A DNA stretch of 64,000 bases from Achatina immaculata (Eukaryota > Mollusca > Gastropoda > Stylommatophora > Achatinidae), in contig CM019702.1 of assembly GCA_009760885.1 (NCBI GenBank), positions 49,585,925-49,649,924 on the forward strand, given 5' to 3'. A program made the position numbers and the translations under genes. Each line of letters opens with the position of its first letter. Positions within the stretch are counted from its first letter, which is position 1. Below, piece after piece: positions 3,243 through 45,100 of this stretch. A model generated the notes under the pieces. The model did no database searches. It had not been told where the DNA came from and saw only the letters and a program-made list of their open reading frames with translations.

Positions 3243-3507
3243 ATGCTCATTACATTAGACCTCACCCCTGCCTGCCAAGTGGTATGTTTGCTTCTTGTCC
3301 TAATGGTTCATCCGGGCACCCAGCAGCACTGCCAAGATCACGAGGAATGTCGAGGGGAACGCCCATTACTTCCTACTGGCTGTTGCCCCGTGGAGGCGGG
3401 ACAAGAATGTCAACCTGCCAATGGCACGTTTTGTGATGCAGAACTTGGATTTACATGCATGAATGCTTCTGGAGATGTGGTGGAAAATGGAACCGGGACA
3501 TGTAAAG
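3243..3507 (+). CDS. sas: sas-like exon 1: signal peptide and Cys-rich N-terminus
   Basis: The ATG at 3243 opens 88 codons. Residues about 11-22 are hydrophobic ([10 protein letters not shown]), followed by HPGTQQ, which fits a cleaved signal peptide. The mature N-terminus is Cys-rich ([30 protein letters not shown]) and loosely recalls IGFBP-type Cys motifs. The exon ends in a strong donor (AAAG/GTAAGT) in phase 1. An overlapping frame from 3143 is a shadow: it has no signal peptide and no Cys pattern. I see no clear TATA box upstream, and a 5' non-coding exon may exist outside the part I can recognise. Confidence 0.7.
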
Positions 3508-9243: not shown

Positions 9244-9296
<53 letters not shown>

Positions 9297-18200: not shown

Positions 18201-18966
18201 CTGGAAAATTTGCATAGGGCTGACGTAATGGGATGTACCGCTCTCATTTTCTAGTTATAATGATACGCAACCTGTATAATACATTTTTTTCCTCTTGCTT
18301 TTCGCTTGACACTTTTTAAAAATTTCTATTTTTTTTTCCAGAAAATACTGCTTATTTTCTCTTTTTCTGTCCATTTAAGTTTTAGTTTATCTGCGTATTT
18401 TACATAATTCAGAGTTTTCTTTTAAGACTTTTCAGTCCACTTTTGCAATTTGTGTTTCTTTTCTTTCTGCAGAATGGTTATTCCTATATTTTTTGCCAGA
18501 AAGTCTGTGGTCTGCCTGTAACAGAACATTAGACATTAGAATACACAGATTTAACCAATAGCCATTACATCTCATTATCTCGTGTGAATTATATGAGTGA
18601 TGCCGGGCCATCCGTTTCAACAAAATCAGTTTTATACCTCAATTATTTGACCGTTTCTACTGTATAATAAAATCCGTTGTTTCTGTGGGATCTCGCTTTT
18701 ACGTGCTTTTTTGAGATCTCTGTTACGACAACACAATTTGTTTAAGTGGAGATTCATATACGTTTTGAAGGATCAGTTCGTGTGTTTGTGGCTGATCTTT
18801 TTTTTCATCCTGTAGGTCAAAGAGAGAGAGAGAGAGAGAGTGTGTGTGTGTGTGTGTGTGAGAGAGAGTGTGTGTGTGTGTGTGAGAGAGAGAGAGTGTG
18901 TGTGTGTGTGTGAGAGAGAGTGTGTGTGTGTGTGTGAGAGAGAGAGAGTGTGTGTGTGTGAGAGAG

Positions 18967-18998
<32 letters not shown>

Positions 18999-19023
18999 TG
19001 TGTGTGTGTGTGTGAGAGAGAGA

Positions 19024-19057
<34 letters not shown>

Positions 19058-21529
19058 TATTCAACTTCTTATCTGTCTGAATTTGTTTTTTTCTTCAAAT
19101 GTCACCCTATTAAATTCCCCAAGCTCTCTCCCCGCTGTCTGGGTAAAGCCTGGCTAGATAACTTTCCCTGTACTTCGACCCAAAAAATAACGTTTCGCAA
19201 CTTCTCTGTTCTCCACACATAAAATTCCAAGTTTTTCTAATTCTCTCCCTCAGTTTCATATTTCTGTTTCTATAAGTTCTCTTTACTTGTTTATAAAAAA
19301 TATTCAAACAGATTATGTAAAAAAATAAAATCTTTGCGAGTTTCTCAGTACGATGTGTTCTAACTTTAATTAGAAAAACAAGCGGGCTGCGTTTACTCAG
19401 ACAGCGGAAGAGTCTGGGAAATCTAACAGGGCGACATTTGAACAAAAAAATACAGACAAAATCTAAGGAGAATTGTATTCACAGTTGCCAAGTTCTCTAA
19501 ATCAAAAGATAAAAAAGGCGTACTGCACCCCTTTGTTTTTCTAATTCCAAAATTCAAAACGTTTATTCCAATACAGTTATCTTCTCTGTACCCGGTGAAA
19601 AGAAATAATAATAATTATTATTATTATTATTATTACACATAAATAAACGGAATATAAATACTGCACTTCAGACTTGTAGCGAAGGTGAAACTGTCTTAGA
19701 TTTTCTCCCCATATTATCAATAAATGCTAATTCTGTATTGTCCTTGACCCAAGTATTTGTCCTGGTTTAAGAAAAATGTCACAAAAAAGCAGTTTATCTG
19801 AATAAATAATACTAGGGACTGCACACAATGGAGAAGCAAGGCGGTAGGCTTGTCAGTTAGGCATCAAATCAATAAATGAATGAATATATTTCTTTTAAAA
19901 AAATGGCGCCGTTTAATGCCTCAATCTCATTGATCTGTCGAAACAAAACGCCTGCATATGCTTTGTAACGGTCACAAAAATACATCAAGGTTGTCCAGAA
20001 TTTACATTTTGTGTACTATGTTGCTTGACAAGGCTGTGAATGTTAGTAAATGCTGTAATCTGAGAGTTTGACCTACTGTACAGGATGCACAGTCTTTTAA
20101 GTTACACATTATCCCTTGGATAATACTGACCTATCAGAGGCAGAGTTAATGTAGGTGCAAGGGTATTGTTCCAGGAGACAACAGGGTAGAAAATATCAAG
20201 AAAACTAAAATGCAAGTAAAAATTTTAAGCTACGACGGTCGTTCCAAAGTAAATTTACAAGGGTTATAACATCAAGAGCAACATGTATCTGGACATAACA
20301 CACTGTACGCTGTGGTGTCTGAAGGCAGCACGTAAACGTTCCAGTGTTGTAGCGTACACAGCCGCATTAGTTGTTGCTCCCATTTCCAGGAAATCAACTA
20401 TCAACACGGCTTTCTGATTCTAAAACACGGTAATCATCACCTTTGCCACAGACGACATGATCTTGAATTTTCTATTTCGTTGGCAGCAGATGCTTCCATT
20501 CCATGCTTGCACATTTAGATCCTGGGGTGTTATGGTGAACATAACAATGCGTTACAGAAAGTCGTGGCCTTGAAATGGCATATTGCTGCGGGAGTGACAG
20601 GGCGTATGCCATTCTTTTTTCCTTTGTGGTCCTCGCTCAAAAAGGGCTGGCGTGATACATCGTGCACCCACCTTTTAAATCCCAAAAGCACACTCATTCT
20701 GGACACTGCTCCGCGCGACAGAATCAAGTCATACTTTAACTCATTCACAGTCACTCGTCTGTTCTCCAACATTGCAAGTTCCATTCGCGTCTTCTTAGCT
20801 GCCGAACTTGCTGGCGTGGATCTGCCAGTCCGCGCTACGTCATTGGTTGTCATTCTCCCGTTTCGAAATTCTGAACAGCGTTTTTGCAACTACACGTTGT
20901 GGACTTATTACATTGTCTCCATATACGTCTACCAACTGGCGATAATCCGCGGCGGGCACGTGCTTCGCATTCAGAAATCCTATCACAGCACGAAGCTCCT
21001 GCTCGGACAGCTACTTCAGTCGACCTTCCATCTTTAAAACAGATGCCTCCTAGATAATGCTGCACAGTGATGCCATCTGACACGGCTTTGCCAAATGACG
21101 AATACAGAAAATTCTGCAACCAAGCCTATTAGACTGACATCTCGTTCTCGTTGTTGCGTGTGTCCTGATTTTCCCAGACTGCGCCATTTGTAGACTAATA
21201 CACTTCGTCTTCGGCAGCATTGGCAACCTCGATAATGGCGGGACTTACCCGGGTGATCCATGTCCGAGCGCTTGTCGGAGAAATGATCCCGCTGCTTGCA
21301 CGAAATCACATACAGAATCGTTGGACATGGTGTAATCCACATCACTTTTGCAGGGGGGAACTCCAGTCTGTGATGAAAAAAAGCACAATTGTTCACGCAC
21401 TCGCACAGAAGGCACAGACGCAACAGTACTGTCCGTCATCTTAGACCGGACCTCCGAATGTCGGTCTGACATCAATTTTAAGGACGTTACATGATCTTGT
21501 AAACTTACTTTCGATATGCCCCTCGTATC

Positions 21530-21567
<38 letters not shown>

Positions 21568-21642
21568 AGAGAGAAAACGAACGAAAGAACATACTTTATT
21601 TTCAAAGGGTTAAGAATTCGGCACTCAGGCCCGTCTAATATT

Positions 21643-21676
<34 letters not shown>

Positions 21677-24600
21677 AATGGCAAGAATGATATGCACTAG
21701 GTGGCAGCTAATTTAGATCTGCTCTGTGATCCTCTTCATAAACTTCTCGTCCAATTAAACATAGTAGTAAATAATAAGATTAATAATAGAGAAATACAGA
21801 GAGTTTAATGTGAATCTATATTTATCCTTTATAGACTACTCAAAGGCATTTGACTGTGTACAACACCAGAAACTTTGGGAAATAATGGAAAAAATGGGAT
21901 TTCCAACACATTTGATACAATTAACATCACTGCTGTATCTAGACCAACAAGCAACAGTAAGAATAAATGGTGAAACAACAAGTTGGTTTGACATAAAACA
22001 AGGGGTCCGTCAGGGGTGCATATTGTCACCCTACTTATTTAACTTGTATACTGAAAATATAATGAGGAATGTTAGAGAAGATGTAGACAAAGAATATTAC
22101 GATGCCATAACAGTTGGAGGTTATGAAATACCAGAGATTAGATATGCTGATGACACAGTATTGCTGTCCACAACACAAAAAGGAATGGAAAAACTAATTA
22201 TGTCAGCCGCAAGAACAGCGAAGAGCAGAACCTCTATCTTAATGCAAAGAAAACTAAATTGATGACAACTGACAAAACAAACAAGGCAACTGAAATATGT
22301 ATCAATGAGGAAAAACTGGAAGAAGTGGAGAGTTTTGAATATCTTGGATCGCTACTAACTAATAATGGAGATACAATGAGGGAAATTAAAAGGAGGACAT
22401 CTATCGCTCTTCAGAAAGTAAAACAAATAAAGAATCTGTGAAGAGGAGCAGACAAAACCACAAAAATAAGATTTTTAAGGGCATGCATCTTTCCCATAGC
22501 AACATATGCCTGTGAGACCTGGACACTTAACAAAACACATGAGAAAGACATAAATGCCTTTGAATGTAAATGCTACAGAAGAGTTCTCCAAATATCGTGG
22601 ACACAAAAAAGAACAAATATATCTATACTACAAGAGCTTAATATTGAAGAAGGCTGGCTAGTGAAGAGGATTAAAGAGAGAAAATTGAAATATTTTGGAC
22701 ACATTAAACGTCATGATAATTTAGAGAAGACCGTATTGGAAGGATACATAATGGGAAAAAGAAAAAGAGGAAGACCAAGACGAAGATGGCTGCAAGACAT
22801 CGTTGACGATCTGCAAATGGACGCAGCAGCAGCAGGCCATCTTGCTCACAACCGAGAGGCCTACAGGAGTGCTGTTTGGGAGGCAAAGTTCCGCAAGGGA
22901 CATGCAAATGAATGAATGAATGAATGAGTAAATAATATCTAGTCTGTTTAAAATAAGGAATTTTATCAAATTTCATTGATTTGTCTTAGACAATCTTGAA
23001 TTTCCAAATCATGACTTGGAATAAGATGAATGATGGACTTTATTTAAGTTTGACCCCAATCACTTAGTCTAAGTACTAACTGACAACGATCTGGAGTAAA
23101 AAAAAAAAAAAACTTCCACAAGTCACTTAGTGTTATTTAATGGGCCACCAAAAAGAACACAGTTACAGTTACGGACAAACCTTGATGTAACATCAGACAA
23201 TTAAGATAAGTAAATAAGAGCTCAAAAAGCCAGGTGAAATAATTAAAACAGGGAGTGTTAATCTATAATTACTAGAACAGGTATACAAACAATCCAGGAG
23301 GATGTCAAAGGGACATCACTCAGTTTTGTGTTTATGTGTAAAGTGGCGTCACATACGCTGGATGTTGCATTGTTTCCCTGGATGCATCGGTGTCTTCCCT
23401 ACAGGGTAAAGCAACGAAATTTGATAAATGAATAGGGTAAGGAACATATGGAACTAATACAGGGTGTTCCAAAATTTCCTTTACACTTTCTGGTGGCCAT
23501 TGTAAGAAGACAAATGCAGCTGTATGAAGAAAATGTGTGTTATTTTGTAGAGAAATTCTCAGAGTTTTAGACATACTTTATAAGGACTCAGTGTAAGGTT
23601 CTCTGGTGACATAGAATACGTCAGTGCGATAACCTAGTTCTTCTCAGGCTTTAAGTAGGATACCTGGAACAGCAGATGTGATGACGTCCGTATTTTGTAT
23701 GTAGGATACCTGGAGTAGCAGATGTGATGACGTCCGTGTTTTGTATGTAGGCTATCTGGAGTAGCAGATGTGATGATGTCCGTGTTTTGTATGTAGGCTA
23801 TCTGGAGTAGCAGATGTGATGATGTCCGTGTTTTGTATGTAGGGTACCTGGAGTAGCAGATGTGATGATGTCCGTGTTTTGTATGTAGGGTACCTGGAGT
23901 AGCAGATGTGATGATGTCCGTGTTTTGTATGTAGGGTACCTGGAGTAGCAGATGTGATGACGTCCGTGTTTTGTATGTAGGCTATCTGGAGTAGCAGATG
24001 TGATGACGTCTGTGTTTTGTATGTAGGCTATCTGGAGTAGCAGATGTGATGACGTCCGTGTTTTGTATGTAGGCTATCTGGAGTAGCAGATGTGATGACG
24101 TTCGTGTTTTGTATGTAGGCTATCTGGAGTAGCAGACGTGATGACGTCCGTGTTTTGTATGTAGGCTATCTGGAGTAGCAGATGTGATGACGTCCGTGTT
24201 TTGTATGTAGGCTATCTGGAGTAGCAGATGTGATGACGTCCGTGTTTTGTTGCCTCAGAATGTTCAGATCCTGTGGAAGAGGGGAAATGGTTTTAATATA
24301 CCCCCACAAGAAAAAGTCACAAGATCATGGGATCTATGGGGCCACTGCAACAAATATGAGTCGTTTTTACTCGCTATTTCGGTCTATCCACTGCCAGATT
24401 AGCTTTCCAAAAGGCGTGCAAGTCTCGGTGCTTGTGAGGAGGTGCCCTGTCTTGTTGAAAAATGAAGTTTTAGTAGTCTTCCTGAAGCTTACGCATCAAC
24501 CAATCAATTAACATCCTCAGATATGACACACTAATTACGGAGTCTTCATGGAAGAAGAAAAGTACATCACTGAAATGGCACAAAGGATGTTCACATTTAA

Positions 24601-26250
24601 TGGATCAAACTGTTGCGCGATAACCCGTTAGGTGTTTTCTGTATCCCAAACACAATCATATCTGCTCACCTTTTCACTTAAAAGGAACGACGATTCGTCG
24701 CTAAAAGTTACCTTCCTGGCATACCAGCTACCCTTTCGATATTGCTTCTAAAACCCGTACAGAATTGACGTCTAATCACTTTGTAATGTCTGTTAAAGTA
24801 CGCACTAAATGTAACTTGTATGGGCGAGTGCAAAGGCGAATTCGAACTTGGCCACACATCTTAACACATGACTTCTTCGGTGAAATTACTTTCGTGGACT
24901 GCATTGATACTCCTTGCGACTTTCCTTCACCATTTTACATGACATAGACAGACACCTACCGTGGTTGGCGGGATGGAGACCTTTCTCTTCAAACCTGCTC
25001 TACTATTGATAGATCGTCGGTCTAGAAGTGATTCATTTTCGATACATGTGCGGAAACTTCACGATATTGCTGTAACACTGTTGGCTTTCATCAAATCCAA
25101 CAAGCAAAATGACATTTCGGTTCGTATTTCCACCGTCTTGTATATACACTCTCTGGTGTGCTCGGTATGACGCGTGGAGCGTGATTTAAAACTTCGATAG
25201 CTTCCCTACAATTTGTTTTCCTTCAGTTAACACACACTTTCTCCGTGCAGCTGCATTTGTCTTCGTACAATGACCTTCGGAAAGTATAAAGGAACTTTTG
25301 GAGCACGATTTTCAGTACCTTCAGCGATAGAAGTACAGGCGGGGAAGGCTCGGTGATTTGAAACAAAAAAAAATAAATATAAGAAAAATTACAACTAAGC
25401 CCCTTTTTTGCTATTGATGTATCATATTCTCTCTCAAGGAACACTCTTGGAGATTTTTGGAGACGGTAAAATATTAATATTTTTAAAAAATGCCTTGGAA
25501 GTTAATGAAGTTTCTGAGATATGAGGATATGTAACCTGTGTGTGCCAATAAGGAATGTAGAAAAAAAAAGAAAAGATATTACAGAAGTATGGAAGACAGA
25601 GATATTGACACATTTCTTCTCAGGAAACTGTTCTGAAGTAGGCAAATATCAAGTGTTGTGGATCTTACCAAACATCATCTTGCTGAATAGCACCACTCAT
25701 GGCTGACTCTACAATGCTCTATTTGCATAATCGGACAGGTATTATGATAACCACACCCCTCTATCTAGGTCTACCCTACAAGTACCATTTTCACCCCAGT
25801 CTTCTTCACATTTATCTTTCTGATATTAAAGAATAATTACCACTATGCTTCCAGGTCGATACAACTTAAACGTCACGTCACGAGGCGAAACAGAAGTGAA
25901 CCTGGCCTGGACTGCCTTCGCCCCTCCTGGTTATATGTTTGAATATGTTCTGTTGTACCGAGTGGGGAGCAGCCACGCCCACCTCTCTGAGTGGAGTAGA
26001 AGAGAGGTGAGTGAGTCAATGAATGAGTGAGTGATAAATGACTGTGATGAAATCCGAAGTTGACTGACAACTTAACGATTTTGTGGTAAGAAAATAAGTG
26101 TAGTCTATAAAGGAGTGTCATCTTTGTTGTTTTGTTTTGTTGTTGTTGGTTAGTTTTGTCGTTATATGATACACATATCATCATCTTTACTGTTTTTTTT
26201 TTTGGTAGGATATAAAAGTTCTCTCGTTCTCTCTCTCCCCTCTGCCTCCC

Positions 26251-26302
<52 letters not shown>

Positions 26303-27125
26303 GTTGTGGTAGAATGTAAACATTTTTTTTCTTTTGCTCTTGTTGCTGTTGAAAGATATATATATATATATATCGTCATGTCAGGTTTTTTTTCGGGCTG
26401 TAATAGAATCTTCCTGTAAATGCAAACTTCAGTTCTCTGTAGCTGATCTTTTCCTTTTTTTTTTGTGAAGACACTTAAAACAATCATCTTCTTTATCAGA
26501 CCGGAAGTAAATTATTACAATGTCATCTCCCAACAACGTCATTTCTTTAAATGAACAAATATGGGGTGATGAAGCATTTTCTTGTGCTTTCAGATAGGAA
26601 ACCAGCCGTTCTACACCATGCGACGTTTGAGTCCAGCCACCTTGTACTTTCTGAAGATAGCCGTGTGGGAGAACGCATTTAGTGAGATCTTAGGCAACAC
26701 TTCAGAGACAGTCATGGTGGAAACCCTACGTAGGTTGACAATGCTGCATTTGTGCTGTTTCTAGAGTGTGTCAGAAAGTGGTTCAGTGCTATAATCTGTA
26801 GCTTCATGCAGCCTTAGGACTGGACTCAAGTCCTGGTCCTCCCACCCCCCTTTTTCAGTTCTCTGCTGAACTTTTGGGTGCTGATGACTGATACTTGTAT
26901 TGAAATGGTTAAGATAGCAGATCTGACAATTCATTTTATTTAAGAGACAGAGCTTATATTAAAAAAAGTGTCTCATCTAATACAATCTACCTCAGCCTGC
27001 TATCAAGCGGCCTTTTGGTGACTTCTTCTAGTCGCTTCAGATTTTATGTGATAACTGTGACATCTAATCGATTTAATTTGGATTCTTGAATAAAATATAC
27101 ACAGAAATCAGAGAAGAGAAGAGGA

Positions 27126-27170
<45 letters not shown>

Positions 27171-27193
27171 GCATGCTTTGAAGGCAGAAATTT

Positions 27194-27227
<34 letters not shown>

Positions 27228-28052
27228 ATGTTGTGGTAGAATGTAAACATTTTTTTTCTTTTGCTCTTGTTGCTGTTGAAAGATATATATATATATATAT
27301 CGTCATGTCAGGTTTTTTTTCGGGCTGTAATAGAATCTTCCTGTAAATGCAAACTTCAGTTCTCTGTAGCTGATCTTTTCCTTTTTTTTTTGTGAAGACA
27401 CTTAAAACAATCATCTTCTTTATCAGACCGGAAGTAAATTATTACAATGTCATCTCCCAACAACGTCATTTCTTTAAATGAACAAATATGGGGTGATGAA
27501 GCATTTTCTTGTGCTTTCAGATAGGAAACCAGCCGTTCTACACCATGCGACGTTTGAGTCCAGCCACCTTGTACTTTCTGAAGATAGCCGTGTGGGAGAA
27601 CGCATTTAGTGAGATCTTAGGCAACACTTCAGAGACAGTCATGGTGGAAACCCTACGTAGGTTGACAATGCTGCATTTGTGCTGTTTCTAGAGTGTGTCA
27701 GAAAGTGGTTCAGTGCTATAATCTGTAGCTTCATGCAGCCTTAGGACTGGACTCAAGTCCTGGTCCTCCCACCCCCCTTTTTCAGTTCTCTGCTGAACTT
27801 TTGGGTGCTGATGACTGATACTTGTATTGAAATGGTTAAGATAGCAGATCTGACAATTCATTTTATTTAAGAGACAGAGCTTATATTAAAAAAAGTGTCT
27901 CATCTAATACAATCTACCTCAGCCTGCTATCAAGCGGCCTTTTGGTGACTTCTTCTAGTCGCTTCAGATTTTATGTGATAACTGTGACATCTAATCGATT
28001 TAATTTGGATTCTTGAATAAAATATACACAGAAATCAGAGAAGAGAAGAGGA

Positions 28053-28097
<45 letters not shown>

Positions 28098-28116
28098 GCA
28101 TGCTTTGAAGGCAGAA

Positions 28117-28159
<43 letters not shown>

Positions 28160-31100
28160 TACACCTTGAATAAGTATTTCATGAACAAGAGTAGAGAACA
28201 CATGCCAGTAAATAACTGAACGAATAAAGGAGTCAATTAATGAGTGAATGAGTGTGTGAATGAAGTATCTCTGCTACAGTGAAAGCGGTCTTTTCTATTT
28301 CTCAGGATGCGATATCCATACTACAAGTACTTAATATTGAAGAAGGCTGGCTAGTAAAGAGGATTAAACAAAGAAAACTTAAATATTTTGGACACATTAA
28401 ACGCCATGGTAATCTAGAGAAGACCGACTTGGAAGGGTACATAATGGGAAAAAGAAAGAGAGGAAGACCAAGGCGAGGATGGCTGCAAGACATCGTTGAT
28501 GATCTGCAAATGGATGGATCAGCACCAGGCCATCTTGCTCACAACCGAGAGGCCTACAGGTGAGCTGTTAGGGAGGCAAAGTTCCGCAAGGGACATGCAA
28601 ATGAATGAAGTGATGGGACGGACTCTTCAAATGTTTCATAATCAAGAACCTTTCTCGACAAACTCTATCACCATTAAGTCGATCTCTGAACCATTGATTA
28701 AAATGGAGTTTAAGAAATTGGTGCAAAGGCTTATGCTACATTGGTCCAACAAAAACAATGAGTATGAATGGCGCAACCGTGCTAGTAATTTGCTAGCGAG
28801 GTGTCACAGAGTTCGCGATAATTGGGGAGAAGAGCTCGGGCGCAGAGTTGCACTGTTTATTGTCATATTAATTTATGAACATAAATGCATGTAATGGCGA
28901 CAAATGTTTACACAAATATAAAGTGTAATCGTTTATTGCTTTTTATAATTTGGCACCCCTGAAATAGTACTGGCGCCAATTGAAATGATTTTTCTACTGG
29001 TTTGATCATTGTCTACTTGTGGAGTACAGTTTGAACTTATACATTTCTTCTTGTTGTTGGTATTCTAACAATCACCTAATTTTCTATATTATACACTGAG
29101 AAAATACAACAAGACACCCAGGCTTCCAACTCCACAAAATAATACAAATACACAGCTTAACATAACTTGGCAGCCTTCCAACCAAACAACTGGTCAACAA
29201 TGAGAATTCCAACAAAGCCAATTGGTGTAGTATTTCATCAGACCACGCACATTTATTAATGGACAAAATGAGGGTGAAACCATGAATGATGGAAACATAG
29301 CCATCTGGCTGAACAAGAATTACATTAACAGTGCCCGGCGTGAGAGCGAACTCCACGCCATATGGGCGAAAACCTTACAATGTACTATGCACAAAAAAAT
29401 CAATACTTACAACATTACCAACAAACCTCAACCACCACAGGGAAAAAACTAATTCTTCCATCTCACTACCAACACATTGCCACTGGTAGAAACTCTTCCC
29501 ACACGAGATTCCAATTTGCAATAAAACTACTAAATTTCTTCCTACATCACCAACCAATAAAGCTCCTGCTACAACAAACAAGTAAGGCTTTCTCTACCAC
29601 ATTCTAGAGTCAATCACACAACCTTTCTCTGACACATTCTGACCAAGCCTGACTTTCTCAGCCCATGCATACCTCCCGTTCAACTCAACCACGTGACTTC
29701 GAATTTTCTCGAACCACGTGCTTGGCACACGGTGATGAGTTGTGGTCTACCACAACTACAGGGCTATACACAATACACTCTGTACAGAATTGTTATTCTG
29801 TTACAAAAGGAATCATGAAATTTCGATTGACAATACTTAAGTGTCTGCTCAGTAAATGTAATGTGAATTATAAAACGTTTCAAAACGTGTATGAATAATA
29901 CTGCAGTAATGAAAAAAGGTTTAATTCCGACATAAGTATGTGGGAGGGTTCCTATGTTTAAGCACATCCTTCAAGAAACCTTTTGTACTCATACTTGCAG
30001 CTGTGGAATTATGTGAACACATAGGGCACGCGTATCAGGTGGGTGAACGTTTCATTCACGAATGCGAGGACAACTGCACTTGTTTGCCAACTGGAAAGAT
30101 TCAGTGTATTCCACTCTGTCCTGAATTGCCAGAGCTAGAAAACGGGTGTCATCGCGTTTACGGGGAACAGTGCTGCGAATACAGTATTGTTTGTCCAGAA
30201 ATAGGAGGTAAGCATGAATATATGTCTTTATTGTTTGTCCAGAAATAGGAGGTAAGCATGAATATATGTCTTTATTGTTTGTCCAGAAATAGGAGGTAAG
30301 CATGAATATATGTCTTGATTGTTTGTCCAGAAATAGGAGGTAAGCATGAATATATGTCTTTATTGTTTGTCCAGAAATGGGAGGTAAGCATGAATATATG
30401 TCTTTATTGTTTGTCCAGAAATAGGAGGTAAGCATGAATATATGTCTTGATTGTTTGTCCAGAAATAGGAGGTAAGCATGAATATATGTCTTGATTGTTT
30501 GTCCAGAAATAGGAGGTAAGCATGAATATATGTCTTTATTGTTTGTCCAGAAATAGGAGGTAAGCATGAATATATGTCTTGATTGTTTGTCCAGAAATAG
30601 GACGTAAGCATGAATATATGTCTTGAGTGTTTGTCCAGAAATAGGAGGTAAGCATGAATATATGTCTTGATTGTATGTCCAGAAATAGGAGTTAAGCATG
30701 AATATATGTCTTGATTGTTTGTCCAGAAATAGGAGGTAAGCATGAATATATGTCTTTATTGTTTGTCCAGAAATATGAGGTAAGCATGAATATATGTCTT
30801 GAGTGTTTGTCCAGAAATAGGAGGTAAGCATGAATATATGTCTTGATTGTTTGTCCAGAAATAGGAGGTAAGCATGAATATATGTCTTGAGTGTTTGTCC
30901 AGAAATATGAGGTAAGCATGAATATATGTCTTGATTGTTTGTCCAGAAATAGGAGGTAAGCATGAATATATGTCTTGATTGTTTGTCCAGAAATAGGAGG
31001 TAAGCATGAATATATGTCTTGAGTGTTTGTCCAGAAATATGAGGTAAGCATGAATATATGTCTTGATTGTTTGTCCAGAAATAGGAGGTAAGCATGAATA

Positions 31101-33057
31101 TATGTCTTGACTGTTTGTCTAGGAATAGGAAATAAGCATGGATATATACTTCTATTGTTTGTCCTGAAAAAAGAAAGAGGTAGGCATGGTTATTTATCTC
31201 ACTAAAGGAGATGCACTTGGATTGTTTGTCCAGAAATGTGAGTTCAGTATGGATTGTTTGTCTGGAAACAGGATATAAGCTTGCAAATCTGGACTGTTTA
31301 GAAGGCTTGAAGACAGTGACAGGAAGAGACAGCTTACAAATTAATAAAAGCTTTACACAAATCAAGTAAAAGAGAGCACTGGCAAGAGAAGACAAGAAAC
31401 AAGTTGCCACTTAGTACTGCTGGTTTTATATTAATGTACTGAGTCGGTTTTATGGAAAAAAAATAAAGATCTTGCTACGTCAGAGAAAAGAATGGATACT
31501 GATTTTTTCTTGTTCAGTATATGATTTTGTAATGATTTCCTTTTCATTGTTATGTGAGGTAGTCATACTAGGCAAGAAATGTCACTCTGTGGATTTAAAA
31601 TCCATAGTGAGGTTGGGAGTAATATTCCTGAAGGCATAAGGAAAAGTTTTTTTCCTGTCACTGAAATCTCAAGAAAATTTTTGTTGGCATGGGCAAGCCA
31701 TTTCATACTTCAAGTTCTTCAGGAATTCGAAAGAAGAAAGCTGAAAATTCAAATGGGAAACAAGGGAGATAAATAGGCAGATGAAATAAGACAATATGAA
31801 TAAATTGTTATCTTTGAAAATAGTACATTTATCTTCATCTCTCCGAGTCCAGCATCTGAAAACAAGAGTAGAAACAACTTATTTAAATAGCTTCTATATT
31901 ACTAAAATCTGAGATATGATGATGTAAGTTAAATTTTGAAAGGAAAAGTTAAATGATGAAAAAGAAATGAACTGATTTTGACCTGACCACATAAAAAAAA
32001 ACTCATAATAGTCAAACAGTATTGCTCGTTTGGTAACACAATAATGACGCTAGGAATCTTAACTGTTGCAGAGGCTTGCTCGCACGACGGCATCGACTAC
32101 TCTCATGGTGAAGAGTTTGAGCTAGGATGCCAAATTTGTACTTGCAACAACAGCCAGCTGGTGTGTGCTTATCCTGAAGAATGTCACGTGATGGAGCCAA
32201 CAGACGAGTGTGCACACCCTATAAGCAGGGAGGTAGATGGCCAGTGTTGCCCAGAATGGCACTGTGGTAAGGCTGCACTTAATTTGTTATGTTCGTGAGA
32301 GTTCTAAAACAAAGTAGATTAATTCTTTCTTTTTTTTCTCTGTGAAAGATTTATTTAGATAAATAAATAACTGTTTTACAATCCTGTGTTTCCTTTGTTG
32401 AGTTAATTATTTCAAAAATAGATTTCTTTAGTAGGAGAAGGTTATAAAATCTGTGAACAGAAAACTTGGTTTCAGCTTTTTAAATCAGACTAACTGGTGA
32501 ATTAAAACTGGCCAAATATGTGACTTCTATTTCAATGTGTTATAACACACACAACCAGTATATTATGACAATATGTGAAAAAAAATTAAGGAATGAAGAC
32601 TAATTTTTTACTTTCCTATTAAAGTGACATCATCAATCTCATAGTTTATGCACACAAATTCTATGACACCAGTGAAATATCTTTTGAGAATGTTTCCACA
32701 ATTTTACTGGAAGTCATGTTTTCAAGTCATATATGTAAGAAATATTCTTCTTCTAATTTCAAGCATGCAACTATGAGAACAGAACATACGACCAAATGGC
32801 ATATTTCACCAGCAGCCACTGCAACCTGTGCCAGTGTGATAATGAAGACAGTGTCCAGTGCACACCAGACTGTCCTCCTGTAGAGATGGTCCTTCCAGAT
32901 GCTGCGTGTCCTGATCCTCACATTCGTCAAGATGGCTGCTGTGATACCCTCCACTGTCATGATCCAAATTTAGGTTAGTTGGTTTCCCAGTACTTGTCTA
33001 CATACCACATTCTGTATGTCTGTTTGTTAGTCCTTCACATTCCACATCAATCTATTT

Positions 33058-33104
<47 letters not shown>

Positions 33105-36100
33105 TTCTTCTTCTTCACCTTTCCAAGTCATTAAAGCTCATTATTGCAGATGAAGTTCACCTCCATTCCTCTCTATTCCTAATCTTCACTCTCCAGTTGG
33201 TGAAACCAATTTCTTTTATATCCTCTTCTATGCTGTCTTTCCATCTCTGTCTTGTAGAAAACTCCTATGCACAATTGATTACACATATCTTAAATCCTTC
33301 CCGTGCCATTAAACGTTACATAGGGCTCGCAAGGTAGTTTGCCAATTTTTCCTGTCTTCGGCGAGTCTTTCTACCTCATCAAGGGATTTTATGCCTATTA
33401 ATTTGGCCTCTCTTAACAATGTCCTCTTCAGAGTTTCATGCGGTCTGCCTCTTTTTCTTTGGCCTGGTGTGTTCCATTTTATAGCTTGTTTTGGAATTCT
33501 CTGACTGTTTCTTCTCATCATGTGACCAACATATGTCCATCTCCTTTTCCTGTTCACCCATGAGACTGGTTGTTGTTCAGTCATCTGTCTTATCTCTGCA
33601 TTGTTCCTGAATTTGTTCCACTTGATGCCAAGTATTTTCCTTAGGCATTTGTTTTAAAAAAAGTCAATTTCTTTAGTTGTTTTCCAGCTTTCACATGGAT
33701 AAATGAGGGTGGATTATTACATTTGAATTGAATAGTCTTAACTTGGTTTTTGTGCTTATAACTTTTGAATGCCATGTTCTCAAGATTCTTGAAGATCGAT
33801 GCTGCTTTTGCAATTCTAATTCTAATTTCCGTTCTGGTGTCCCCATCCTGGTCTGTGTAGCTGCCAAGGTATGCAAATTGATTGACTTCTTCAATATTTG
33901 TCCCTTCTATGTGAATTTTTCTATTTTGATTAATGGGAAGTTTCATTATTTTTGTTTTGTCCTTGTTAATTTCAAGTTCTATTTTGCTAGCCAGTGAAGG
34001 CAGGCTATCTGTTTTTTCTTGCATAGAATTCACATTGTTACTGATAGGAGTTACTCATAAATCAAGCAAATTATAAATAGTACTTTCTCATTTTACATTT
34101 TATGTGTACTTGTGTCTTCAGTATATTACTTACTACACTACCTGATGAGGAGTATAACAGAATGTGTGTAAACAAAGTTCCTTAACTATCAAGCTGTACT
34201 AGGCTTATAGTGTTGGTGAAACCTACTCATAATTTGTCTTTTTCTTGTGTTGAGTCTGGCTTGTGATTTGTTTAGAGAGAAACTTGTGATTTTGGTGTGT
34301 GAAATTCAAATGTTGGACATCTTGTGAGAAGATTCATTTTTAGATTAGCTTGAATTAAGTGAGAATGAAGAACACACATTCTAACAAGTGCTGTAAAGGA
34401 GTTATGTATTTATTCGTCTTACTTCAATTATCACTGTTTTCATTCCTGTGGTGGACTGATTTGTATAGACTTTAAAAACTGCCTAGATTACATTGTTCAT
34501 AATGTTTTTACACACTATTTGAGATGTCACTTCACCATCTTCATCACCATTTCTCATTTGGATTAATCATCATCATGAATTGGAAAGATTAAAAGTCTTT
34601 AGCTGTTGATATGGCCTTATCATTGACATACATGTATATAACTTGTGTGTGTGTTGAACAATTGAATCTGGGTTGTAGTGATGTTGTATTATACAATCAT
34701 CATAAGTTCTGACACAGACAATCCTTTTCTCCAAAATTTTTATACTCTGCTATTGTTAATTTTCCTCCAGATATGGCACAGTATATACGAAGGATGTTTG
34801 CACTGTCCTATAGCCCTGCAACTTTGACCTTGAGCTTTGAAGTCAACCCTCCAACAGAAGTGAATGGAGTGCCTTTATATTGTCAGTATGAGATTCTTTA
34901 TGCCAATACATCAGACCCATTTGGTAAGTAACCTGCTGTTCTAAACACATAATATTGTGGTGCACAATTGATACAAAGTTTTCACCTTAGTTATGATGAA
35001 GTTATTACATTATTGCCATGTAAAGAAAGAGAAGAAAGTGAAGAAGTACTGGAAAATAGAATTTAGAAGATACCGCAGAGTTTAAAACAAAAGATGAACT
35101 ATGTTTTATGATTGAAATAAAAAGCAAATTACAACATAATCTATTAGTTGAACATGATTCAAAGGCTAAATGTATTTTTAATGATATGGATATAATACTA
35201 TTATCAAAAAATTATCAGAATAAAGGGAAAAAAATGTTCAAAGTTTTATACTACTGTATTTTCAATACAAACTATATTTTATTTCCACCACATTCAGAAA
35301 CAAAAAAGCCCAAATCTTATTTCTTTTAGATTTTTGCTATACCACCTGTATGCTTAGTAATACTCTTAATTGAACCTTCACATTTTGTTATGACGGCATT
35401 TTAAAAATTTCATTTTAAAGCAATCATTATATTATCCTTTTCTTTCACAATACATTATCTTCAGTAACATCTGCACAAACCGATGCTCGTCTAACTTGAA
35501 AGGTTATTGTAGTATAATATATACAAGTTTTTTTTTTATGTTCAGTGACATGGACCCATCGCCTGGTGCAGCCTGTTGATATCCAGCTTCATCATGATCA
35601 GCCATACCTTCTGGAACCCACAGAGGCACTTACACGAGACAATGCCATTGTTGTTGGTGACAGAGCGTATGTCACGCTGTCTGGCATGTACCCTGACACA
35701 ACATATTATGTAAAAATAATCCCACTGGATGGTACCTTGGATGACATGCCTGGACATTCACATGAAGATTTCAATTATTCAGACAGCAGAATATCAGCAA
35801 TGGTCGTGGTGAAAACTATGCCTCTTGATAACAGTACGTACATGAGAAAATCATACAAGTTTCCTTTTTTTTTATCTTTGTGTGCACGTAGAAGACGCAG
35901 AAGAAGAGTATTATCATTTCCAGTAGTAGATTAGTGTTTATTGTGCACATACTCACTTTTTAATCTTCCATTGCTTTCATATAAACTAAAATTTAAAAAT
36001 AAAATAAAAGTTCAATGATTTAAAAACACCTATCGAAATTAATAAAATGAATGAACACAGGACAGATATTGTTGCTGATAAACTCTAATCTTCTTCTTCT

Positions 36101-39100
36101 GCTGCGTTCGAAGTTGTTGGACACATCAGATCCTGATCCTTATCACAATGGCAAAGGCTGCAGTCCTCTCCAGATCCTGATAGGAGCCCCAAAGCTTTTA
36201 CCCCAAGCTCATGTCTTCTGGCCATGTCTCACGCTTCAGGTCTGCATGGTTTGGGCACTCTTGTAGGATATATTCTGAAGTCTGGACTCCACTGCCACAT
36301 GGACACTCATCTGTGTGAGACATTTTGAGTTGATGTAGGTGGCTCAGTAGTCAGCAGTGGCCTGTCCTTAGGCAAAAGAGGATGGTAGATGACAGACAGA
36401 AACTAGACTGAAAATAATTCTTTAAAAAAAAAAGCTTTCATAAACATTTGATTACTTGACTCAGTGTTTCTCTGTTACTTTTCTTCAAAGTTATTTGTGA
36501 TTAATCTTTCTGTCAGATAACATGTCCTTCTTTTGTTTTATTTCCTCTCTTTTGATAAATCTCCTTCTGCTCTCAGTTTTTATATTTTTACAATAGGCAA
36601 AAGTCAACCACAAAACTGCCCGCTCCAGAAACAGTGCTGAAAAACTCACAACTTTAAGAATAGACGGATCATAAATAAATTCCTTTTAGCTGACGACCAA
36701 GCATTTATAGCCACATCAGAGAAAGACCTACAGCAGAACATGGATAACTTAGTGAGGGCATGTAAAATCCTCAACATTGAAGATTAGTGGTGGAAAAATG
36801 GAAGCCATGACTATAGTGAGAGAAGAAATCTCAAAAAAAAAATCTTTCTGGACAACCAGCCCTTGAAACAAGTGAAACGTTTCATATACCTAGGTAGAAC
36901 AGTATTATCCTCAGGGAAAATTAACACTGAAACTGAAAACAGATGCAATAAAGTCTTTAGACAAATGACATTTTTACCGAAAAACAAATACACCACATTT
37001 GAAACGACAAAAGCACTGCACAATACACTTTTCCTCCAAACTCTACGCTGTCAATCTCAAACATGGACACTAACAGCCAGGCACAAAAAGAAAACCATCA
37101 TGACAGAAATTAGATGTTTAAAGTGAATACTAAATGTGACAAAATGAGACCAAATAAGAAATGACACCATCGGGGCAATGGTTAAAGTAACATCAGTACT
37201 ACATTACATTCAGAAATAGCAAGTCAAATGATTTGGCCAGGTTACATGGCTACCATCAGAAAGTATACTATAAAAAACAGTTACACTAAAGAATTGTAGA
37301 AATCAGAGCCCACCCATGCAAGAGCTGGAGGGAGCAAACTGCAGAAGCCTTAAATATCCCATTATATGAAGCAAACTGTGGGAGCCCTATCAAGACGTCA
37401 GTTTATCCCCTCAAGACATCAAGACATCAGTTTATCCTATCAAGACATCAGTTTATCCTATCAAGACATCAGTTTATCCTATCAAGACATCAGTTTATCC
37501 TCTCAAGGCATCAAGACATCAGTTTATCCTCTCAAGGCATCAAGACATCAGTTTATCCTCTCAAGGCATCAAGACATCAGATTATCCTCTCAAGGCATCA
37601 AGACATCAGTTTATCCTCTCAAGGCATCAAGACATCAGTTTATCCCCTCAACACTAAAAGGAATATGAGTAAGGAGAAAAAAAAGGAAAGGAGAATCGTT
37701 TGGAATTTTAAAACAGAAAATAATTATAAGTCACATTACTGATGCTCATATTGTTCTTTTTTAATCAGTCTAATTATGTTTTTATTACTGATCTTCTAGT
37801 ATTCTTTCCTAAACTTCTTGTTCATAAACATCTAATCGTCTTTTTCATCTGCAAATCAATATAATGACTGTCAGTGAAACTTTCTATATTTCTCATATGC
37901 CTAGACATATTTCACTGCTCAATATTTCTGAATTTACCATAGTAATTAGTATAGGTTAATGCCACTTTTTCAACAGTAACATCATGTTTCCATAATGGCA
38001 TGGAAATCTTACATGGAAAAAATGTTGACAGTGACTGTGGTCAGATCTGCAAATGCATTATGGGAAAAATAACTTGCCATAGCACATGTGAAGAAGAGCT
38101 GGTCATTGTGGCAGCTTCACTAACATGTCCAAGACCTCATCTAGTGAAGCAAGAAGGAGACTGTTGCCCTAGGTGGATCTGTAATCCATCAGGTGACTAT
38201 GTCTGTTTATAAACTAAGTAGAATGGAAAGCAAAGGCTTTATAATGACTTCTCAAAGTGATAGAAAAGTGAAAACATTCGGAAAGAGAGAACAGTAAAGA
38301 ACATAAGCTATGAAACTGTACATGTACACATTCCTAAACATGGAATTCTAAGCTAGTTTTGTTTAAATGTTATCACTGTTTGCAGCATAAATGCTTTATA
38401 ATGTGTTTTGACAAGATTTACTGTCTCTGTCAAGTACTGTAAAGTTTCAAGATCAGTACTTTTAGGGGCATTGTCACTGTAGCATAGCTTTTTGATGATG
38501 AGAATGCATTTCTGATACTAATCAGGAAAAATTTTGTTGAAAGGACAATAGTCTTCATCATCAGTTTCCAACATAAGGTCTGCAAACCTAGAGCTTGTGA
38601 AGTGTCATGTGAGAGATTATATATAACAATCCCAAGTGGTGGTGAAGTGTTGTTGGGAGGGGGGTATGTGGCTTATTATCATTGGTTTCAGGGATCTGTG
38701 ATCTGAAAAATGGTTTGTAATCTTTTGGTCTACATGAATATTTTTACAGTATATGTGAAAGACCCACTGAACAGACTATGCTGGTTGGGCCACGTGGAAA
38801 GAATGGAAGAGAATAGCAAACAAAAAATGATTTATGTACAAAAGAAGAAGCAAACAAGACCAAGGGGTAGGCAAAGACAGAGGTGGAAAGACGACATAAA
38901 AGAGGATACATAGGAAATTCATGTCACCAACTGGAGAGAGAAGATCGGAAATAGAGAGAAATTAAGGAAAACTTTATCCGCAACAATGAGCCTTAATGGC
39001 TTGGAAAGCTAAAGTACAAGGTCAGACAATTAAGTAATGAGAATGATTTTATTATGACCAAGACAAAAATGCCATCTGTGAAGCAAAGCATGGAATTCAG

Positions 39101-42100
39101 AGAGGCAACCTTCATCTATGATCTGGCATATTTTCATTGCCGCCCGATGAGCAGCCAACAAACAAATCGCCATTTTGTTGACCTAGTCAGAAGTGCATTG
39201 TTACGTAATCAGCATGGAGCAAAAAGCTAACATTAAATTATGTTTAAAATTCGGAAAAAGTGCCAGTGAGACAGTTGAACTGATGCGACAAGTTTATGGG
39301 GATAATTGTTTATCTTATGCACAGATATTCAGGTGGTATTCACTGTTCAAAAGTGGCGTGGAAACGATTACAAATGCTACTAGACATGGACGCCCAATTT
39401 ATGTTCATAATAAGGAACTCATTGCAAAAGTCAGAGAACGGATACAAGAATATCGTTGTTTGACTGTGAGAATGATGGCAGATAAATTTGATGTTAACTG
39501 AGAGACCATTCGTAAAATGTTAGTGGAAGATTTGGGCAAGAAAAAAGTTGCTTTCCGGTTTGTACCACAATCATTGTCTGATGACCAAAAACATCAGCGT
39601 TTTGAGTACACAAAATCCCCTGGGAACACCTGTGTTAAGAACACACTTATCTTAACATAGTCTTTGTGACTGAGGAAACATAGATGTGATTGCTTAAAAA
39701 CTCTGACTCACTTTTGTAGACCAGAAACCTGTAGCAATCAGCACTAATTATAATGTCAGGTTGGTGGACGGATAGGGACATGGAGATCACCAGCAGGGAT
39801 GAGGAAAATCTGGTGTGAAACCAATGAATCCAGGATGTGACAAGCCTATGGGTCCCTACAACAGTGGCTACCAAAATGATGTAAACAAAACAGAGCCAGC
39901 AGACTATAGGTAGCGGGGACTGGATATCGTTGAAGCGCTCATCAGATTCCTCATCCCAAAGTTAGAGTGTCTCTGTGGAACTGTCTCAAAGCCGTTGGGC
40001 CTGATGTGGAAAGGGGGCTTAAGTACAGCCACCAGAGGCTAGAAAACAGGTCAGCCTACACCATTGTCTTCATGGCAGTCCGAGCAAGATCACAGTCTGC
40101 CCTAGCAAGGAAAGATGCTGAAGTTGGAGGTACCCAGCCAGAGGCGCATCACAGAAATCAGGGTACCACGCATTACCGCTAGATGCGTACGAAGAAGAAG
40201 AAGAAGAGTACACAAAAGACATCAGAACGTGTCGCAGAAATAAACATTTCTTAAATTTGATTATTGCAGAGGATAAAACATGGATTTTCCGCTATGATCC
40301 CACAACTAAACGCCAAAGTGGTTAGTGGAAGTCATCATTATCACCAAAAGGCAAAAAAAAAAAAATTCGTCTTCAAAAGTTGAAAGTGAAGACAATATTG
40401 GTGTGCTTCTATGACAGCAAAGAAGTTATTCACAAAGAATTTAACCCACAGGGACAGACTTTCACTGCCAAAGTTTATTTAAGTATTTTTGAAACACCCA
40501 TTGAAAAAAGATTCTCTGAGTCCGACCTGAATATTCAACACCTGTCATTTTTTTCCTTCTTCATGATAATGCACCGGCTCACCGGGCGGTAGCTGTACAG
40601 GAATTTTTGGCCAAAAAATAAGTGTGTGTTCTCAACCATCCACCCTATTCCACAGATTTGTCAACCAGCGATTATTTTCTATTCCCAAAATTAAAGTTAC
40701 CATTGAAAAGATGCTTCTTTGACGATACTGATGACATCCAAAGGCCCCTAACATCGAGTTTAAGGGCCATACCAATAGAAGAACTGCAGAGGTCATTCCA
40801 GTGTATGTTAGATCGTGTCACTCTCTGTATCAGTGCACAAGGGGGTTACTTTGAATAAAATACAGGTTATATCTTCAACTGTTGTTTATTTTATTTTTTA
40901 ATGTAATTAGTCTCATAACTTAATTGTCGGACCTTGTAGAAGAAGAAGAAGGTGTGAAAAACCCATTTAACTGCCCATTCCACTAAACTAGCAACTCTGC
41001 TAGATTTTCAGACATGTAAAACTTGTCTTTCCATCAGAACTAACTGGCAAAGTTGAGAAGGTGAAGCAGGATATATGTTTACCCGAATCAAAACTATCTT
41101 CTATGATGAAAAAAATCCTATTAAAATACCATTACAATACATTATTGCTACGATTTTGTAAAATAACAATTATTACAGCAACAGGATGTCATTACGGTGG
41201 CCTTATCATGGAATCTGGACAGTCAGTTACAGAAATGTGTCAAGTCTGCACGTGCGTAAATGCTTCCATTCACTGCAGCAGTGTGTGTCCACCCTCTGGT
41301 CTACCACCAAGACCGCAGTGCCAGCTGGCCAATATTTCTGGTGACTGCTGCTCACAGTGGAAGTGTCCAGTGGGTTAGTTTTTTTGTTTTTTTTTCAATT
41401 TTTATAAAAATTATTTCTTCTGAATCTGTAACAAGAAAACAAAAACTTCACTGATACTGAGAATGTAAATCTTTGACACTTATGCTCATATTTTCTTGCT
41501 ATGATATGGGGGGGGGGGGCATTCACATGTAAGGGTGACACATTTTTACATTAATCATCTAGAAGTGAAAGAAATGTGAAAGAGGTTATTTTTCTGTAAA
41601 AACATGAGAATGCAAAAAAGTACATTTTTATTATCCACAAGCAAAACAAACATAGATAAGCACAGTGAAATAGTAAATCATAACAAAGTGAAAACACACA
41701 AAACAAAAGCACTGTGACATTCATATGTAATAGTAAAACAGCTTGATTATCCAGAAAGTTAATATAAAAGTAAAAAAAAAATGGCATCCACTGAGACACA
41801 GAAGAAATAAAAATCACATCTTAAAACATCTACAAATAAATCAAGAAAATAGCAAAAGCAAATTAATTATATGATCATTCATTATATATATTATAAGCAA
41901 CATGCCTTTAATCACAAAATGGTTATATTAGTTTCAACCATATAATATTGATGACAGATGTATCCTTCAGATGCCAGGAGTGGAGCAGTGCCAGTGACAT
42001 TTTCTTTTAAAAGTACTTTCCTGTGGGTGTCTGAGTGGTGAAGTGGCTAGTGCACTGGTTTCTCATGGTGAAGGTCGGGGTTCGAATCCGGCTGGAGACA

Positions 42101-45100
42101 CCCCAGTCACCCAGCTGTAGAAGTGAGTACTCAATTTCTTCTGGAGTTGGGGAAGGAAATGCGGCCAGGCGTGATACTGACCATAACACCCTCTAGTGTC
42201 CTGACAGGTCAAGGAAAATATGGGCACTAACACCATATCCCACATGTGCCTCTAAGGCATGACAGGATTACCTTTATCTTACTTTCCTGTAAGAAGTTGA
42301 ATTGTAATAATCTAGCAAATGACAACTAGTTATAATCTATCAATGCCATTCTTATCACATGGCAAAAGGGCAAATGGTTTGGTTATACTGCATTTAGAAC
42401 AGCTTCAGTGCAGACATATAGTGCTGTTTATGTTATGTGATTTGTTTCTTAATGTCTTGTTTCCATTGTAGATTATTATGTTTATTACAACTTACCTGAA
42501 ATAATTTGCAGAAAAACACCTTCCATATGGCATAAAATCATCAGTTCTAAAGTATTTCCATGGCAGCTGCCGTACAACTGTCTCAGACCATCTAGAAGAT
42601 TTTAAGAGACAGGTCTTGAGCTACACAACAAGTCACATGGAATGTTCAAATATGCAGTCAAAATTAGCCAGATTTTGTAACACAGTTCAAATCAAAGTTG
42701 TCTGCCCTGAATCAGATGATATTGTCAGTGATTATCGAAAGATGCGATCAGTCAACACTAGCAGTAGTGATGAGAATATTCCAGTCATGGTCACACTGTA
42801 TCTGAACTTCAGGTAAGAGCAAGATTCACATGGTTTATTTTTGTATATTTTTTTTTTTTGTCAGACTCATTTTATAGCACAACATTCTTATTCATTACAG
42901 AAAACCTATCCAACAGAATCCAAATTTTTCTCTTAGAAAATAAAAGAAAAAGGCTTACACTTGCACAGAAATAGCAAAGCAACAGTTCTTTACATGATAA
43001 AGTATCACTTTCGAATTTATTTTTAATAATTTTGCTAACTGGTAAATATATTTGCTATTCCTATGAACTTGTATCTAGAAATGCTGAAAATGGTTTATTG
43101 TGCAAAATAATCTTTCATGGCAATCTACAGCTCCACATATTCAGATCCGATGACAGTGAAACATGTGCGGTCTGCTGGGTTTCACCTCTTGTCCATTCTG
43201 AACTCAAGCTTTGAGATTATGTTGGACAATGGTCAAGTTGTGACCTCATTAGCTGGGGCCCAGCTTCAAGGGATGTCATTTGCATGTGATCATGGCTTCA
43301 TATATGCAGGAGAATTTTGTAGTAAGTATACAGCATATGAGTAAATTTAATTGTGTGCTTGGAAATATGCAGATAAGATGGATTGTATGATTGAAACCTA
43401 GCATCCATAATGAGTATGTAAGCAGTTGGATATAGGAGTAAACCTGAAAAAAAGACACCAACTGCCATGGCACCAGCAAGCCTTTTTTTTTCTGCTAAGA
43501 ACAGGCCATTGCAAACTACTGAGCCAGTCATTCTCATTCATTATATCTTTTATAAATGAATATCTTTACAGACTTGAATCAAAACTTTAGGGCACACTGC
43601 AAGAGTTTCCAGCTCATGCAGATCTATATTGTCAGAAGTCCTGTGGTCTGAAGCTGTGAGAGAGATGCTGGACAGATATGAAGAAAACTTTGAATCTGTA
43701 AACAGAGCTACTGGTTTAACACAGCTGTAGAATGCTGAAACAGAAAATGATTTGTTTGGTTTAGATTATTATATCACTAAGGAGGTTGCAACCAGGTACT
43801 ATTTGGGGGGGGGGGGCGTCCAGCCAGTGAATTGTGTCAGTGCCCAGAGTTTTCTACTCTTTTGAGAATTGACCTGGAGGGCTTGGGAGGGGCACCATAG
43901 TGAATGAAAACAGATAAGTGATAGTGGGAAGGTGGGGGGGGGCTCTGCTCTGGCTTATAGAATTTCATTATGAGGCCCTGATGCAATTAAAGAGAATGTG
44001 AAATTTGGTTCCTTTGAAAGAAAAAATATTTTGCGAACATCATATTGAAAAAAGATGTAGGCAATATGTAGGAATCTATAAACTGTTTCAACAGTATTTT
44101 GAAGGCAAATTAGCAATTTAAGAAAATAGCAGCTTTTTTTTTTCTAAACTGAGAAAAGTTATAAGTGATGAATTAAAATGACAATGAAAATTAAAAGAAA
44201 AGTAGAGAATATGATTCTGAGGGGATAAGAAATGGAGTTTAAGCTTCTGGAAAGTCTCATCACACGTGGAACAAAGCAAAATTATAGATGAACTAATTAA
44301 GCTGTTTCAGTTTTTAAAAAGAATTCTAAATTTTTTTATAGAAATGATGAAACCAATGCTGTCAGTGATACTGATCGAATGATGATATGATGAAGATGTA
44401 TTACTTATTTATTAATACTGAAGTTTTGTCTCTGTCAAGTCCTGTCCAAGACTGAGTCAAGTTTCTCCTTTAAGCCTATCATCCAGTTGACACCAGTACA
44501 GCTCACAGCAAACTCTGTTGTGTTACACTGGTCCACCATTGGGCACCAGCATAAGAAGCAGATCACTGGATTTTTGGTAAAGGTTATTAGAATGAAGCTT
44601 CACTGAGCATATTTTAAATAATCATTAATTTAATAGGCTGATAATTTAGCCATATACATCTTGTGTAATTTTTCAGAATCCTGTAATCACAGCTTATCAC
44701 TTAAAACTTTACCCATGGACATTCTTTGCGGAACGAATTCAAGAACAAAAGATGAGCAAACAACATCCTGTCTCACGGGTGATAAGAAAAAGGAGATAGA
44801 CATATGTTGGTCATGTGATTAGAAGAAACAATCAGAGAATCCCCAAACAAGCTATTCAGTGGAACACAACAGGCCGAAGAAAAAGAGGTCAACCATGTGA
44901 AACTCTAAAGAGGACATTGTTAAGAGAGTCCTGTTCAGTTGGCATAACATCCCTTAATGAGACTGAAAAAACTCGCTGGGGACAGGAAATCTTGGCAAAC
45001 TACCATTGGGGCTTGATGTGAAGTTTAACAGCATGGGAAGGATGTAAGATGAACATTCTTTATGGCTACTTGAGTTGACTCAAGTTGATATAGCAAATTA

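Follow-up and report, generated by a model that had tools for sequence, protein, structure and literature searches.

A minisatellite across an exon–intron border multiplies a splice donor in a gene of the snail Achatina immaculata

Which of many equal splice donors is used when a tandem repeat copies the end of an exon into the following intron, and does such an array do anything for its gene? The question is raised by a 44-bp array at the exon 4/intron 4 border of an Achatina immaculata gene, contained in a stretch of 64,000 nucleotides that we refer to as the window and number from its first base. In a six-frame comparison, the first homolog came from Bulinus truncatus, with 46% identity across the query, and proteins of Biomphalaria, Lymnaea and Elysia were compared further. 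The homologs bear VWC and FN3 Pfam domains, and one of the records is named 'epidermal cell surface receptor'; by homology, the host is a gastropod epidermal-cell-surface-receptor-like VWC/FN3 gene, in whose predicted protein a signal peptide and a membrane segment were recognised by eye. The part of the gene model that matters here is as follows.

3243..50232, plus strand: host gene span, with 17 coding exons by homology (borders of exons 10–17 approximate, last C-terminal residues unmapped).
30001..30207, plus strand: exon 4, a VWC-type domain by homology, phase 1 in and phase 1 out, with acceptor TACTTGCAG and donor GAG/GTAAGC.
32072..32266, plus strand: exon 5, the next VWC-type domain, with acceptor CTGTTGCAG.

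Using tblastn, exon 4 was matched by Bulinus P0001 (53% identity) and Lymnaea P0003 (61%), and over exons 4–5 the nearest of seven proteins was that of Lymnaea stagnalis (55%). Exon 10 matched Pfam VWC just under the cut-off (E 2e-5), and exon 4 alone gave no Pfam match and no significant match to PDB (three up to E 1, best E 0.12). When Lymnaea P0003 was searched against the genome (1.65 Gb, 145 contigs), all 15 of 15 matches fell inside the window, and the host gene is apparently single copy.

Exon 3 (136 nt) fits the phase of exon 4. It lies in each of two identical 881-bp stretches, 26301-27181 and 27228-28108, 927 bp apart; because of its length, both copies together would shift the frame, and the pair may have arisen very recently by duplication, may be two mutually exclusive exons or may reflect a mistake in the assembly. 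The window also holds a 336-aa reverse transcriptase ORF on the minus strand (47557-48567, RVT_1 E 1.8e-18), to which a protein on a short public contig is 97% identical. Residues 677-851 of Bulinus P0001 form a repeated tail (VYQHAPKCI type) that closes its gene model, probably a tandem repeat read as coding.

A preliminary description of this DNA had proposed a 44-bp repeat of about 22 units, the first of them lying across the exon 4/intron border, and both TRF (30186-31169, period 44, 22.4 copies, 95% matches, score 1770) and a table of the individual units confirmed it.

30186..31169, plus strand: 44-bp minisatellite that begins in exon 4 and runs into intron 4 (TRF and unit table).
30186..30229, plus strand: unit 1, with 22 nt of coding sequence (IVCPEIG plus one base) followed by the first 22 nt of the intron, 1 difference from the consensus.
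31110..31300, plus strand: decayed 3' units of the array, which the array query also matches; the end near 31300 was judged by eye.

Exon 4 thus contributes its last 22 nt to unit 1, or 23 if the preceding T is counted. With the register set at 30186, units 1–21 differ from the consensus at 0–2 positions and unit 22 at 11, and the mean pairwise identity of the units is 96.8%. Measured against unit 1, divergence is 0–1 in units 1–9, 0–3 in units 10–21 and 10 in unit 22, so that variation grows with distance from the exon, which is the pattern of a polar, growing minisatellite. Over 21 units, 10 substitutions fall in the exon-derived half and 7 in the intron-derived half. Since 21 near-identical units stand head to tail, an origin by chance is impossible. 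The unit sequence had no match in a viral collection. A minus-strand frame of 452 codons that crosses the array had matches to six Pfam models, the best being VHL (E 2.1e-14); no individual stretch passed, and the frame was rejected as a repeat artefact.

An inflated or wrong number of units would be a trivial explanation, and the neighbouring 881-bp identical duplication of exon 3 does raise local doubt about the assembly. Against this, the unit variants follow an ordered pattern, the array is shorter than 1 kb and lies within an 83-Mb contig, and similar arrays are present elsewhere in the genome; we consider an assembly artefact the least probable of the readings weighed here.

Because the border lies inside the unit, the donor is copied with it. 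In agreement with the earlier statement that the GAG/GTAAGC donor recurs in nearly every unit, the motif is exact in 19 of the 22 in-register units, the deviant ones being unit 10 (GACGTAAGC, GAC/GTAAGC), unit 12 (GAGTTAAGC, GT lost) and unit 22 (GAAATAAGC, lost).

30208..30213, plus strand: donor 1 (GTAAGC), presumably the authentic 5' splice site, by the ungapped homolog junction (6 of 6 covering) and the in-phase joining to exon 5.
30252..31093, plus strand: donor copies of units 2–21, 18 more of them exact GAG/GTAAGC, one GAC/GTAAGC and one without GT.

The weight-matrix score of GAG/GTAAGC was 6.9, third of the nine donors scored in the host gene with a simple matrix taken from general knowledge. 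Donors 1–9 and ten later donors are identical over the 9-mer, and therefore nothing local explains a preference for the first. The frames do distinguish them: from donor 1, exon 4 joins exon 5 in phase, and when exon 4 is extended to any border of units 2–22, TAG is met in unit 2 (21 of 21), as had been predicted for the use of a later donor. In all six homologs that cover the exon 4/5 junction (P0001-P0006) the junction is ungapped, with no extra residues, as predicted by the use of donor 1; the seventh, P0007, covers only the C-terminal part, outside exons 4–5. We infer the use of donor 1 from the length of the homologous proteins alone.

Taken together, the locus is probably an ordinary minisatellite across the exon 4/intron 4 border, in which donor 1 gives the normal mRNA and the rest is intron, perhaps with slight noise from donor 2. 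A tandem duplication over the border would have started the array, which then would have spread into the intron. For the spliceosome, exon 4 would be defined by its own acceptor together with donor 1, and the whole stretch between that donor and the acceptor of exon 5 would be excised. Occasional use of donor 2 would yield a TAG-containing and probably decayed transcript, and the array may persist as a nearly neutral element without a job. The suggestion of many competing donors with noisy or length-variable transcripts is accordingly probably overstated.

The same description had pointed to a phase-keeping 9-nt micro-exon encoding Glu-Ile-Gly in the units, and the sequence anatomy behind this idea was right. 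In 20 of the 22 units the stretch before the 9-nt piece is TGTTTGTCCAG (exceptions: unit 12, TGTATGTCCAG, and unit 22, TGTTTGTCTAG), and the piece between CAG and GTAAGC in units 2–22 reads EIG in 15 of 21 cases, contains an in-frame stop in 3 and encodes other residues in 3.

30243..30251, plus strand: first candidate 9-nt micro-exon, AAATAGGAG (unit 2), which would add Glu-Ile-Gly.

Splicing could in principle ratchet along the array, donor 1 being spliced to CAG in a later unit, with AAATAGGAG (9 nt) retained and the next donor used, which would yield (EIG)n proteins. Besides preserving phase, this would draw on an acceptor-like stretch that scored 3.4–5.7 in units 2–4, within the range of 0.6–7.6 of seven host-gene acceptors, on a simple scale taken from general knowledge in which the exon 3 acceptor was scored one base out of register. 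Exons of 9 nt are poorly recognised, however, and two observations also speak against it: 3 of 21 pieces contain stops, and the six homologs that span the junction have no extra residues. An intron spanning one unit would be 35 nt long and one spanning two units 79 nt; 35 nt is presumably too short for a mollusc intron, and human introns below 66 nt are termed ultra-short (PMC4463651). We regard such micro-exons as highly unlikely.

A recursive splice site is an acceptor AG immediately adjoining a GT donor, so that the exon has zero length. In the array, CAG stands 9 nt before GT, and the AG that touches GT has a G before it and other AGs just upstream, so that it is not of this kind. A different array on the minus strand (L033, G000:C1 252617-252874) repeats TTTTTCCTCCAG/GTGAGT in 25-bp units, in which acceptor-like and donor-like motifs stand back to back and resemble serial recursive splice sites.

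A border array that multiplies a donor is an already known kind of structure. Amphioxus genes contain so-called mirages, described for Adh3, the globins BflGb6 and BflGb9, TnC and PGBD5 (PMC3087553, PMC3902484). As far as the available parts of these reports describe them, they are minisatellite-like tandem duplications over an exon/intron border, with many of the units carrying splice signals (in the snail, an exact donor in 19 of 22) and with units alike within the cluster and diverged at its boundary, as in the array described here; the snail unit of 44 bp lies within their reported range (10–72 bp in Adh3, about 150–160 in the globins; PMC3087553). In contrast to BflGb6, with 6 and 3 units, the snail array has 22, in a gastropod host. 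The amphioxus cases include acceptor borders together with RNA and haplotype data, whereas the snail array is known from the sequence of one assembly. Mirages were reported, in the same parts, not to disturb regular splicing (PMC3087553, PMC3902484).

A second parallel is the VNTR in intron 18 of human ABCA7 (25-bp unit, 23.7 copies in the reference), whose first two unit bases are the GT of the exon 18 donor, according to the sections available of PMC5954066. There, out-of-frame retention of one unit is one of three alternative isoforms, two frameshift isoforms amount to 14 ± 6% and 2 ± 1%, respectively, and are constant with array length, and skipping of exon 19 rose with array length (PMC5954066). 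The ABCA7 unit starts at GT, whereas the snail unit includes 22 nt of coding exon; length polymorphism and a disease association are known for the ABCA7 VNTR, and the snail array comes from one assembly. In human duplicated genes, minisatellites of about 30 bp at exon–intron boundaries change splicing, on the evidence of the available part of PMC2812944; these boundary repeats belong to segmental duplications and are able to give rise to new introns, while the snail gene looks single-copy.

ABCA7 shows that such arrays can matter, which is the counterpoint to the neutral reading. Accordingly, the array might affect expression, with use of donor 2 or skipping of a neighbouring exon scaling with array length, and the dose of the gene being tuned through stop-containing mRNAs. 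The 18 later donors identical to donor 1 would allow this, and both one-unit retention and length-dependent skipping of exon 19 are on record for ABCA7 (PMC5954066, as far as available); on the other hand, one-unit retention itself was constant with length in that part of the same report, and arrays are depleted, not preferred, in exons. We therefore think an effect on expression unlikely.

This depletion was seen when arrays in the window were counted (period at least 12, at least 2.5 copies, simple units excluded). They cover 6032 of 64000 nt (9%), and 5780 of the 46990 nt of the gene span. In the host gene, a single donor out of 16 and no acceptor out of 16 fall within them, as do 22 of the 3277 exon nt; about two donors would be expected in arrays by chance, from coverage. 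There is no array excess at the donors of the host gene, and a depletion in its exons. One other array touches the theme of donors, a 31-bp repeat at 12218-14673 (about 79 copies) whose minus strand repeats the donor-like TTTTTAAG/GTGAGCCCAGA, antisense in intron 1.

In a genome so rich in repeats (9% of the window), strikes on exon borders are likely. A preference of minisatellites for the donor motif found no clear support in a genome-wide search for three AGGTRAGY spaced 15–45 nt: counted as matches rather than arrays, the donor motif gave 13411, its reverse 9664, a permuted motif 11091 and the permuted motif reversed 13234, so that it was the highest of the four patterns, 39% above its own reverse and 1% above another control. 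Without a clear excess of the donor motif, random seeding in a genome this rich in repeats is a sufficient explanation.

A dispersed 44-bp satellite carrying TGTTTGTCTAG (L004, L006, L008 and others) occurs on many contigs, with at least 146 matches, mostly 85–94% identical. Because of its period, the border array could be thought a divergent member of this family that was inserted and supplied the end of exon 4, and three family arrays indeed score 13–15 against the unit, the maximum over 60 shuffles being 9. That search also returned two non-family arrays, with scores of 13 and 16.5, which makes such scores the level that a search of 1.65 Gb yields; kinship with the satellite was rejected as being at chance level, the unit showing no clearly greater closeness to the family than is found among arrays met by chance. 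Moreover, the exon end encodes VCP, common to Lymnaea, which suggests an age greater than that of the array. We give an inserted satellite very little credence.

To place the minisatellite at the exon 4 border among its like, donor-motif arrays were surveyed over the initial 15.2 Mb of a single contig, where matches were grouped into 26 arrays; after a microsatellite-like array and two nearly identical neighbours had been set aside, 23 were examined. Five of these 23 were judged, from ORFs and by eye, to begin at an exon end.

L082: 48-bp unit, at an exon with an HRM domain (Pfam E 1.1e-9, above cut-off).
L051: 23-bp unit, 19 copies; together with the next exon, Xan_ur_permease (E 4.6e-7, above cut-off).
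L080: 33-bp unit, at an Ig-like exon whose PDB matches at E 10 or below number three, each of them to a DIP or Dpr Ig protein, the best at E 0.01.
L048: 46-bp unit, at an exon that is receptor-like by eye.
L085: unit of about 29 bp, at an exon judged by eye only.

Acceptor-like AGs upstream were recognised by eye for L051, L080, L082 and L085, and only L082 and L051 were supported above a curated Pfam cut-off. For L051, the PDB matches up to E 10 were two SLC23 member 1 chains (E 0.1 and 0.28), and the NCBIfam matches were all below their cut-offs. L080 matched Pfam I-set below cut-off (E 0.11), the L048 peptide had no match in Pfam, PDB or NCBIfam, and L085 had just a weak match to the bacterial CoiA_C (E 0.0081, below cut-off) and none once joined to its downstream ORF. 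An ORF of at least 60 codons led into 7 of the 23 donor arrays vs 13 of 92 non-donor array ends, with the first donor misplaced for at least L075, L077, L083 and L090, and this hints at an excess of donor arrays at exons. On these same counts, ORF length was rejected as too weak to indicate by itself that an exon precedes an array; L083, L086 and L090 have an ORF of at least 60 codons and were not judged exons.

A second, array-blind sample consisted of 40 FN3 exon ends picked by hand out of 145 FN3 matches (10 of the 40 from one cluster on contig C29, 20 viewed on the donor side only, and some true exon ends possibly beyond the fetched stretch). A donor array was found at one of the 40, L107, whose 4.2 copies of a 38-bp unit begin 9 nt within the exon; the end of L113 has a poor 12-bp repeat (73%) and was excluded from this count. 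Judged by match coordinates, none of the 20 FN3 exons viewed on both sides had an array touching its acceptor.

Read-through past donor 1 meets a stop by unit 2 in six of the seven border arrays (that of the window, L048, L051, L082, L085 and L107). The exception is L080 (with L092; G000:C1 near 6298690), in which donors 1–7 share the reading frame and the product would gain 11 residues (VSRNYTLGNYQ type) with each. Its first donor (CAA/GTAAGT) fits the consensus less well than the six copies that follow it, most copies reading CAG/GTAAGT. Arrays of this kind thus seem, from their sequence, to recur at exon borders in other genes of the snail genome, which is new here. A rough extrapolation from one contig end (26 arrays per 15.2 Mb, 2–5 of 23 at exons) gives a few hundred genes. 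The wider proposition, that donor arrays at hundreds of this snail's exon ends form a natural tandem-donor series with varied unit lengths, copy numbers, first-donor strengths and frames, and that at least L080 could yield an Ig protein growing by 11 residues per unit, seems to us evenly balanced between true and false.

The choice of a 5' splice site among identical neighbours has usually been studied with few engineered duplicates. In this snail a single intron offers 19 equal donors and other genes seem to carry arrays as well, so that the effect of position would be separable from that of strength by RNA sequencing. For annotation, the arrays are a warning, as splice aligners may place junctions ambiguously within them. 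No report of mirage-like arrays in molluscs was found in the open-licence literature searched. The mirage phenomenon, which the papers found report from amphioxus and, in similar guise, from human genes, would be extended to a mollusc, in which recurrence across the genome seems to be present.
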